A stretch of DNA of 37,222 nucleotides from Hyphomicrobiales bacterium (GTDB lineage: Bacteria > Pseudomonadota > Alphaproteobacteria > Rhizobiales > Beijerinckiaceae). The translations under genes were made by a program, and so were the position numbers. The notes beneath the pieces are model-generated. The model was not told the origin of the DNA. It did no database searches and saw nothing but the letters and a program-made list of their open reading frames with translations. Where the stretch lies: assembly GCA_025362655.1 (NCBI GenBank), contig JANYFM010000021.1:1-37222 (forward strand), written 5' to 3'. The stretch's first letter is position 1. Each line of letters starts with the position of its first letter. Shown piece by piece: positions 18,370 to 23,454 of the stretch.

Positions 18370-18897
18370 TCAAGCCACAAGCCGCAGCCGGCAGCGGAAT
18401 TCGCGCGGCGAAGCGAGAGCCCCGCGCAATTGCTCCAAGCTCGATACGCCAGGCGCAATCGCGGCTTTGCGCACGATCAAACCTTCCACCGCGCCCAGAC
18501 CGGGAAACAGCCGCTGGAGCAAAGTCGCCGGCGAGGCACGCAGGATCGCCGCGGCCGGCGCGCGTGTCCGGGCGACGCCGAACATATCGGTGATCTCCTC
18601 AATAAAGCCGGCCTCCGGCGCCCGGCCAGCCCGCAAAATCAGCACAAGATCGCCGCGCGCCGCCGCCAGCCCGGCGGCCAGCACGCTATCGGGCCCTGCG
18701 CTAAGCGCCAGCGCGCAACCCGCATGGTCAGCAATTTCAGCGGCTTGAGCTGTGCCGTTCGTCGCGGCCAGCGTTACATCGCGTATCAGCCCTTCAATAG
18801 CGGCCGGCACCAGCGAGGCAAGCGTGCGCACCATGGCCTCGGGCGAGGCTGAAACGCGAACGCGCCCATCGGATGCGACTATGACAGCAGACAGCAT
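18370..18897 (-). CDS. Short glycosyltransferase-family-2-like protein
   Basis: The 175 residues resemble a shortened GT-A family 2 domain: AAIEGLIRDVTLA, then ADHAGCAL and GLAAARGDLVLILRAG, which corresponds to the region ending in the DxD motif of TIGR04283-like transferases. The DxD itself is replaced by RAGRAP, so catalytic activity is doubtful. Similar genes stand next to PA0069-type radical SAM genes in Rhizobiales, as far as I recall. It is divergent from the radical SAM gene and convergent with the FMN reductase gene. Alternative: an unrelated conserved protein of unknown function. Confidence 0.6.
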   Translation of the reverse strand: MLSAVIVASDGRVRVSASPEAMVRTLASLVPAAIEGLIRDVTLAATNGTAQAAEIADHAGCALALSAGPDSVLAAGLAAARGDLVLILRAGRAPEAGFIEEITDMFGVARTRAPAAAILRASPATLLQRLFPGLGAVEGLIVRKAAIAPGVSSLEQLRGALASPREFRCRLRLVA

Positions 18898-18962: not shown

Positions 18963-18994
18963 TTGACAAAAAAATAAATGTTCCTTATTTGTTC
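18963..18994 (+). promoter_or_regulatory. SOS-type promoter: TTGACA plus LexA box GTTC-N7-GTTC
   Basis: TTGACA at 18963-18968 forms a consensus -35. The direct repeat GTTC (18980-18983), seven bases, GTTC (18991-18994) is an exact match to the LexA box of alphaproteobacteria and covers the -10 region (TTATTT, 16-base spacing). LexA would block this promoter until DNA damage. The radical SAM gene starts at 19038, about 43 bases downstream, so the site also shows that the longer track ORF starting at 18978 is not the real start. Confidence 0.7.
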
Positions 18995-19037
18995 TTTCGT
19001 TCCCTCTTTGTTTCAATCCAGGTTTGGAGCCGGCCCC

Positions 19038-20207
19038 ATGCAAGCGGAGTTATTGAGTTCTGGCTCCGCCCTGCCGCTGATGCCCCGCAATGGGCGTGTG
19101 AACATCGGCGCGCATAATGGCGAGGCTTTCGCCTTGCCGGGAATCGCACCGGCCCGCCGCCATGGCCGCGGCGCGGCGACCAACCGCAGCGGGCGCTTTG
19201 AAAGCGAGGCGCGCGAGGCGCTCGACGACGGCTGGGACAGCCTCGGCGAACTGGAGGCATTGCGCACCGAGGTTACCATCGAGCGCCCCAAGACCATTAT
19301 CACCCGCAATGATTCGCCGGATATATCCTTCGACCGCTCGATCAACCCCTATCGCGGCTGCGAGCATGGCTGCGTTTATTGTTTTGCGCGGCCGACCCAT
19401 GCCTATATGGGCCTCTCGCCAGGGCTCGATTTCGAGACGCGGCTGTTCGTCAAGGACGGCGCGGCGGGACTTCTGGAAAAGGAGCTATCGGCCAAAAATT
19501 ACGTGCCGAAGACGATCGCCATCGGCACCAATACGGACCCCTATCAGCCCCTGGAGCGCAGCCACAGGGTTATGCGTTCGGTGCTTGAGGTGCTGGAGCG
19601 GACCGGACATCCTGTCGGCATCGTCACAAAATCCCACCTTGTCACCCGCGATATCGACATTCTCTCCCGCATGGCGCGGCGCGGACTGGTGAAAGTCGCG
19701 CTCTCCGTGACGACCTTGGACCGCAAACTTGCCCGCCTGATGGAGCCGCGCGCCGCCAGTCCGGAACGGCGGCTGGATGCGATCGCTCAATTGTCGCAGG
19801 CCGGCATTCCCGTCAGCGTCATGGTTGCGCCGGTCATTCCCGCCATCAACGATGCCGAGATCGAGACCATACTTACCCGCGCCCGCGCTTTTGGCGCCAG
19901 CGAGGCGGGATATGTGATGCTGCGGCTGCCGCTGGAGGTTGCGGATTTATTCGGCGAATGGCTCCTGGAGCATTATCCGGACAAACATAAGCGGGTCATG
20001 TCGCTTGTCGGCGATATGCGCGGCGGCAAAGCCTATGATTCCGCCTGGGGGGAACGCATGACCGGCACCGGCCCCCAAGCCTGGATGGTCGGCCGCCGAT
20101 TTGAAACCGCCAGCGCGCGGCTGGGCTTTCGTCAGTCGCGGTTGAAGCTGCGAACCGATCTCTTCACGCCGCCGGCGAAATCTTCAGCGCAGCTCGCGCT
20201 GTTCTAA
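19038..20207 (+). CDS. PA0069-family radical SAM protein (SplB-like)
   Basis: The 389-residue protein has the radical SAM cluster motif C-x3-C-x2-C in GCEHGCVYCFARPTHAY and segments DFETRLFVK and GTNTDPYQPLER typical of the PA0069/Rv2578c group, which is distantly related to spore photoproduct lyase. The reaction is not established for this group. The upstream LexA box suggests a role in the DNA damage response. The ATG at 19038 (MQAELLSSG) is chosen because the track start lies inside the promoter. The order radical SAM, rnhB, ccrM appears in other Rhizobiales, here with two small genes between. Confidence 0.93.
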   Translation: MQAELLSSGSALPLMPRNGRVNIGAHNGEAFALPGIAPARRHGRGAATNRSGRFESEAREALDDGWDSLGELEALRTEVTIERPKTIITRNDSPDISFDRSINPYRGCEHGCVYCFARPTHAYMGLSPGLDFETRLFVKDGAAGLLEKELSAKNYVPKTIAIGTNTDPYQPLERSHRVMRSVLEVLERTGHPVGIVTKSHLVTRDIDILSRMARRGLVKVALSVTTLDRKLARLMEPRAASPERRLDAIAQLSQAGIPVSVMVAPVIPAINDAEIETILTRARAFGASEAGYVMLRLPLEVADLFGEWLLEHYPDKHKRVMSLVGDMRGGKAYDSAWGERMTGTGPQAWMVGRRFETASARLGFRQSRLKLRTDLFTPPAKSSAQLALF

Positions 20208-20741: not shown

Positions 20742-21284
20742 TCAGGGTTTTGCGGTTCCGATGAACCCGTAACGCGCGGCCAGATACAGGCCGATCGCCG
20801 CGATGAAGGCGAGGCCCACGAGACCGATGAAGCCCCAGTTCTGCTGCGCCGCCGGCGCGCTTGGCGGTGTGTGCCGGGCGGCAATCGCGTAGTTGCGCTG
20901 GGCGGCGCCGTTGGATGCCGGCCCAGCCGGGGTCGCGGGACCGCGGCCCTCAAGGGTCGCTTCGGCCAGATGCAGGTAGGTCGCAAGGCGGCGGGGCGTG
21001 CTCTCGCCGATAATATAGGAGGCGAGTTCGCTCTCCTGGGGTTCGCGGCTCTTGGCTTTGTTGAAGGCGATCAGCCAGTCGTGCTTGTTTTGCTTGTAGA
21101 TCGAATAAGCCACGAGGCCGACAATGTCTGTGTCGGCTTTGACGAGATTGCCGAAGACGGCATTGCGGTCGGAATCGCCTTCATCCGCCTCCGGATGAAA
21201 ATCAGCGGCTCCGGTCGCTGCGGCGCCTCCGGTTGAAGCGGCGGCTTGCAGCGCGGCCTGATCCAGGCTTTCGTTCTTCGTCAT
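20742..21284 (-). CDS. Tail-anchored membrane protein of unknown function
   Basis: The 180 residues have a disordered acidic N-terminus, a conserved-looking core (LVAYSIYKQNKHDWLIAF) followed by a Pro/Ala-rich linker, and one membrane segment at the C-terminus (GFIGLVGLAFIAAIGLYLAA). No signal peptide is present, so the protein is probably anchored by its tail with the core in the cytoplasm. I have a vague memory of the core in other alphaproteobacterial proteins but no function. The ATG at 21284 starts MTKNESLDQ; the track start adds 23 residues. It is divergent from rnhB. Confidence 0.7.
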   Translation of the reverse strand: MTKNESLDQAALQAAASTGGAAATGAADFHPEADEGDSDRNAVFGNLVKADTDIVGLVAYSIYKQNKHDWLIAFNKAKSREPQESELASYIIGESTPRRLATYLHLAEATLEGRGPATPAGPASNGAAQRNYAIAARHTPPSAPAAQQNWGFIGLVGLAFIAAIGLYLAARYGFIGTAKP

Positions 21285-21380
21285 CTTCGCAACTCCCGTT
21301 AATGCCTCAACGCTTCCTTGGGCCGGCCCCGACGCTGCCGCAAGCGGCTTCACGCCTGATGCGGCGCTTCCCTATAGGAT

Positions 21381-21409: not shown

Positions 21410-21469
21410 CGCCATGCGCGAACCGCCAACACGATGGAATGGGTTGCCCGTGGCGCCAGAGGAATGCGA

Positions 21470-22114
21470 ATGCCGTCCATAAGCCGCCTGCCGACCGCAA
21501 AGCCGGACTTCGTTTTAGAGCGCGCGCTCATACAGCGGGGCCTTTGGCCGGCTGCGGGCGTTGATGAGGCCGGCCGCGGCCCCCTCGCGGGTCCTGTCGC
21601 GGCGGCGGCGGTTATACTTAACCCCGGCAATTTGCCCCCGGGGCTGGATGATTCCAAAAAGCTCAGCCCCGCCCGCCGCGATGCGCTCTATGAAGAAATC
21701 TTCGCCCGGGCGCTGGCGGTTAGCGTCTCGCTTGCGCCGGCGGGCGAAATTGACCTGCTCAACATTCGCGCGGCAAGCCTGCTCGCCATGCGCCGCGCGC
21801 TGGCCGGACTGGCGGTTGAGCCGGTCCACGCGCTGATCGACGGCAATGCCGTGCCGCCCGGTCTCGTCTGCGGCGCGCAGGCGATCATCCGGGGCGATGC
21901 GCGCAGCCTATCCATCGCGGCAGCCTCTATTATCGCAAAAGTCACGCGCGACCGGGCGATGCTGCGGCTTGACCGCGAATATCCGCTTTATGGTTTCGCC
22001 CGGCATTTCGGCTACCCCACCGCCGCGCACCGTTCCGCCTTGGCCGCGCACGGCCCGTGCCCATTTCACCGCGCTTCTTTTGCCCCGGTGCGCGCCGCGC
22101 TAACCCGGTCTTAA
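21470..22114 (+). CDS. rnhB: Ribonuclease HII
   Basis: RNase HII cuts RNA in RNA/DNA hybrids and starts ribonucleotide excision. The 214 residues begin with the catalytic signature [14 protein letters not shown] and contain [23 protein letters not shown] and [14 protein letters not shown] with the later acidic residues, ending [21 protein letters not shown]. Start choice: ATG at 21470 follows AGAGGA; two earlier ATGs (21464, 21434) are possible. It lies 158 bases upstream of ccrM, as in several Rhizobiales, and a CtrA-like site overlaps its last codons. Confidence 0.95.

Positions 22115-22209: not shown

Positions 22210-23454
<1,245 letters not shown>

Follow-up and report, generated by a model that had tools for sequence, protein, structure and literature searches.

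Predicted LexA control of a PA0069-family radical SAM gene in Alphaproteobacteria

The PA0069-family radical SAM gene in the window (the whole 37,222-nt stretch of DNA analyzed) appears, with high confidence, to be under LexA control, with the direct repeat at 18980-18994 as its functional operator. The retention of this SOS site before the same gene across Alphaproteobacteria makes it very probable that an uncharacterised radical enzyme is synthesized upon DNA damage. In the mechanism proposed here, LexA would bind the direct repeat at 18980-18994 and probably also a degenerate repeat at 18999-19013; once bound, it would cover the -10 region and block RNA polymerase. DNA damage would then lead, via RecA filaments, to self-cleavage of LexA, and the PA0069-family radical SAM protein would be made. 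The most likely mode of action of the enzyme is light-independent, with damaged DNA as the presumed substrate and by radical chemistry that would not proceed through the cysteine-based hydrogen transfer of spore photoproduct lyase (SPL).

Organization of the predicted operator region

The following features were assigned at the locus:

18963..18968, + strand: -35 hexamer TTGACA, assigned from sequence, with TTGAC at an equal offset in five sites of the same layout
18980..18994, + strand: predicted LexA operator GTTCCTTATTTGTTC (GTTC-N7-GTTC), a box kept before orthologues at spacer 7 only
18986..18991, + strand: putative -10 hexamer TATTTG, inside the operator, at 17-nt spacing from the -35
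18999..19013, + strand: second, degenerate candidate LexA operator GTTCCCTCTTTGTTT, with a single mismatch, 19 bp past the first box
19038..20207, + strand: PA0069-family radical SAM protein, 389 aa, with CxxxCxxC at C108/C112/C115 (NF033668, PF04055)

The original prediction had placed an exact GTTC-N7-GTTC site over the -10 region of a promoter with a consensus TTGACA. Both the site, GTTCCTTATTTGTTC at 18980-18994, and the hexamer at 18963-18968 are present as claimed, and GTTCCTTATTTGTTC is the sole GTTC-N7-GTTC in the whole window, lying 43 bp upstream of the radical SAM ATG at 19038. The overlap with the -10 region was borne out in part: TATTTG does lie inside the box, but it is a weak hexamer that matches TATAAT at only three of six positions, and a strict sigma-70 scan therefore reported no promoter. 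TATTTG or TATATG also occupies the corresponding -10 place in Beijerinckiaceae-like relatives. The reading frame of the radical SAM gene is open from an ATG at 18978; because residues 1-38 (counted from 19038) are modelled as disordered, the ATG at 19038 or 19080 is a likelier start, and the one at 19038, 43 bp past the box, seems most plausible.

Further along the + strand, after the radical SAM gene, are genes for RNase HII (rnhB, 21434-22114) and a CcrM-type adenine methyltransferase (22273-23454). Although 71 of the 80 orthologous loci have rnhB downstream, an operon with rnhB was rejected for the window, where an opposite-strand gene intervenes and co-transcription is thus not supported. 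Two genes on the - strand, 18370-18897 and 20742-21353, have no Pfam/NCBIfam match, and relatives of them occur in 8/80 and 2/80 loci, respectively.

Conservation of the LexA box upstream of orthologues

Two sets of orthologous loci were compared. The first comprised the best 80 orthologues from a search of genome contigs, and GTTC-N7-GTTC was found within 400 bp upstream in 77 of them, or in 76 when the limit is set at 350 bp from conserved residue 47. The second was drawn class-wide from 289 genomes, 161 of which had a match above the NF033668 cut-off; 110 of these loci, mostly higher-scoring, mostly from different families and including the window's own, were read. In this sample, which is biased to higher-scoring orthologues and in which related loci are not independent, the exact box was present within 350 bp in 93 of the 109 loci having enough upstream DNA. 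It was absent at that distance in the other 16, about half of which carry one farther upstream or with one mismatch. The original prediction had named orthologues lacking the box as a refuting outcome; this outcome did not occur, the box being there in 76/80 and 93/109.

The signal is specific to the spacer and to the upstream position. All other spacers from 0 to 15 gave 0-4 matches per set, save spacer 14 (13 in the first set, none class-wide), and control matches inside the gene numbered 0/80 and 1/110. The extended consensus upstream of orthologues is TGTTCTTGwTTTGTTCT, with sharp edges. Two loci (L124 and L125) have two exact boxes 11 bp apart, forming three in-phase GTTC units about 106-118 bp before the anchor.

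Comparison of the flanking bases points to two promoter layouts, in which the operator would overlap the -10 in the window and the -35 in most relatives. In the more common one (125 of 167 sites), the spacer of the box starts with a TTG-like triplet (mostly TTG), a possible -35 inside the box, and TAnnnT follows 16-18 nt beyond the triplet (offsets 26-28) in 77 of these 125 sites. The other layout, with the box over the -10, is that of the window and of some Beijerinckiaceae-like relatives. Five sites, each with the window's layout, have TTGAC at exactly 17 bases before the box, against 0/125 of the more common layout; a TTGACA-type promoter was therefore rejected as a class-wide feature. In either layout one promoter hexamer would be hidden under the bound repressor, as expected of a LexA operator. 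A second site (at most one mismatch) at +18/+19 was found in 6 of 14 Beijerinckiaceae-like loci vs 3 of 153 others; since these 14 loci are related, the second box is best regarded as a lineage feature and not as six independent gains.

The divergent gene at 18370-18897 (-) starts about 83 bp from the box, on its other side, and might be the one that the box serves instead. This is very improbable: only 8/80 loci have a detected relative of the protein it encodes, while the box tracks the radical SAM gene, and the flanking promoter elements are oriented toward the latter. The bare pattern carries little weight of its own, as 0.83 occurrences of GTTC-N7-GTTC are expected in the window by chance, 59 of 100 shuffled windows had at least one, and the genome-wide count (55 matches) equals that of a reversed-pattern control (60), for which reason the count was rejected as evidence; it is position and conservation before orthologues that make the box significant. 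A chance match at 18980-18994, which these expectations and the unraised genome-wide count would allow, has a negligible probability and can be taken as already refuted by the orthologue comparison, in which a single spacer recurs before the same gene throughout the class and another LexA motif substitutes for it in other Pseudomonadota.

LexA sites in other Pseudomonadota and in the host genome

Among 40 non-alphaproteobacterial orthologues, the E. coli-type motif CTGT-N8-ACAG, often similar to TACTGTATATATATACAGTA, was detected upstream in 25, compared with 0/40 within the coding region and at most one at any other spacer. The carriers comprise all 18 sampled from family f167 together with f178, f187, f188 and two of three from f189, and as they are drawn from few families, they do not represent 25 independent events. 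The canonical motif was absent in the remaining 15 of 40 (f169, f190, f203, f204, f207, f211, f212, f214 and one of f189). Loss of lexA as a cause of absent boxes was not supported, given that a lexA-family match was present in all 56 genomes checked. Five of these matches were only below the family cut-off, and the genomes concerned (one alphaproteobacterial and four not) all lack the box.

The host has a lexA gene (C160:1491-2201) that is itself preceded by GTTCTCTTTGTGTTC on the other strand (C160:1368-1382), and GTTC-N7-GTTC boxes also stand before its ssb, comM/yifB-type and dnaE genes. The same box probably precedes imuA, here an ImuA-like gene that scores weakly against its family, and radA may have it too. 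Besides lexA itself, a low-scoring lexA-family match (36.3 bits; G000 C208:11145-11534, L010) was seen, probably another S24-type peptidase. In addition, an AT-rich LexA-like box, GTTCATTTTAGGTTC, was observed near contig ends at G000 C32:3472-3486 (L007) and C244:12-26 (L101), 36 bp ahead of an open frame of 453 codons; these two may be a single locus split by the assembly, with an unknown SOS gene.

The predicted fold of the gene product resembles SPL

The protein matches NF033668 (rSAM_PA0069) over its full length (556.6 bits vs a cut-off of 360, profile 2-348/348), a family whose library entry carries no assigned function. A Pfam search returned PF04055 (Radical_SAM) only and found no photolyase/FAD-binding domain (CPD photolyase, Phr). 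A structure model was built from an alignment of 85 orthologues (mean pLDDT 84.6), and a fold search with it against solved structures gave SPL as the top six matches (E 6.2e-10 to 4.9e-9, TM 0.51-0.61, TMt 0.57-0.61), the best being 4fhc; SkfB came next at 2.4e-7, and the weaker matches include RNA and peptide modifiers (MiaB, SkfB). A sequence search against solved structures yielded weak local radical SAM matches only. The model suggests a [4Fe-4S]/SAM core on an SPL-like fold.

All three cysteines of the window protein belong to CxxxCxxC, and no fourth conserved cysteine column exists among 229 relatives; the SPL catalytic cysteine is therefore absent. The distant relation to SPL that had been proposed for this family is thus right at the level of fold but does not extend to this residue. 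Y114 is invariant among the 229 relatives, and position 116 is Phe in 175 and Tyr in 54. Judging by position relative to the cluster motif rather than by residue alignment, Y114 and position 116 may correspond to the radical-transfer residues Y97 and Y99 of SPL. In B. subtilis SPL, Cys141 is required and donates a hydrogen to the thymine radical (PMC5368176). The protein, although SPL-like in fold, therefore lacks a defining feature of SPL, and 'photolyase' is a doubtful label.

Possible roles of the enzyme

SPL chemistry is itself not light-driven. The protein is probably a light-independent DNA-lesion enzyme whose substrate or hydrogen donor differs from that of SPL. We give DNA-lesion reversal as its job about an even chance. 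More tentatively, the PA0069 family may carry out light-independent SAM-radical DNA repair, in which both the lesion (not the spore photoproduct) and the hydrogen donor (not the cysteine of SPL) would differ from those of SPL, and thus form an undescribed SOS direct-reversal branch in Pseudomonadota.

It is also quite possible, if short of an even prospect, that the SOS-induced enzyme targets something other than a DNA lesion, such as RNA, a compound of the nucleotide pool, or a protein or peptide. Radical SAM enzymes act on very diverse substrates, and MiaB and SkfB are among the weaker fold matches; SPL nevertheless outranks these in the fold search, its E-value being lower by over two orders of magnitude, and DNA-damage regulation recurs in several LexA systems. 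A true SPL or photoreactivation enzyme, as the labels 'splB' and 'photolyase' imply, is unlikely. The closest fold match (4fhc, E 6.2e-10), CxxxCxxC with the invariant Y114, and the photolyase naming in PMC3323433 and PMC3925955 would agree with this; against it, the SPL family TIGR04070 scores 18.4 bits vs a cut-off of 400, a photolyase domain is missing, and the protein has the three cluster cysteines only, with no fourth one conserved in 229 relatives, whereas SPL needs C141 (PMC5368176).

With predicted LexA control across most of the class, and under the other LexA motif in other Pseudomonadota, the gene is very probably a genuine part of the DNA-damage response. Photolyase and SplB are routine labels for its product despite the absence of a residue needed for SPL chemistry, and the repair target of this SOS enzyme thereby becomes a concrete, testable question.

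Comparison with known systems

The nearest sister family by score is NF038135 (the Rv2578c family), at 220.7 bits under its cut-off of 430. With SPL (TIGR04070; 4fhc and others) the window protein shares the radical SAM CxxxCxxC and, according to the model, the overall fold; unlike SPL it has no Cys141 equivalent, and the residue after the third cluster cysteine is Phe (Phe/Tyr in the family).

Comparative genomics lends strong support to LexA control of this radical SAM gene; the novelty implied for its SOS link did not hold, since an SOS link of splB/COG1533 genes had already been published (PMC3323433, PMC7739468, PMC8565304). LexA sites before 'splB' (COG1533) were published in 2012 for alpha- and beta-proteobacteria (PMC3323433). 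SplB-like radical SAM proteins have been implicated in SOS (PMC3765255), a radical SAM protein is listed in the SOS core of Gram-positive bacteria and also for Balneolaeota (PMC7739468), and COG1533 is listed for Bacteroidetes (PMC8565304); a radical SAM gene of COG1533 has been described as a common SOS member (PMC7739468, PMC8565304). Within a limited literature collection, we found no report of PA0069 or Rv2578c together with LexA. PA0069 is reportedly part of a published P. aeruginosa SOS list. The SOS link of the broad enzyme group is thus already known, and this locus is a fresh instance of it.

The splB genes of PMC3323433 resemble the present case in having LexA sites before an SPL homologue and in using two unrelated LexA motifs. 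That study concerns multi-chromosome species and terms the product a photolyase, and the comparison holds at the 'splB'/COG1533 level. Relative to that work, the range here takes in the whole class as well as other Pseudomonadota, and the catalytic cysteine of SPL is shown to be missing. What the present analysis adds is breadth within the PA0069 subfamily, two layouts of operator and promoter, a second box in tandem with the first, and the absent catalytic cysteine.
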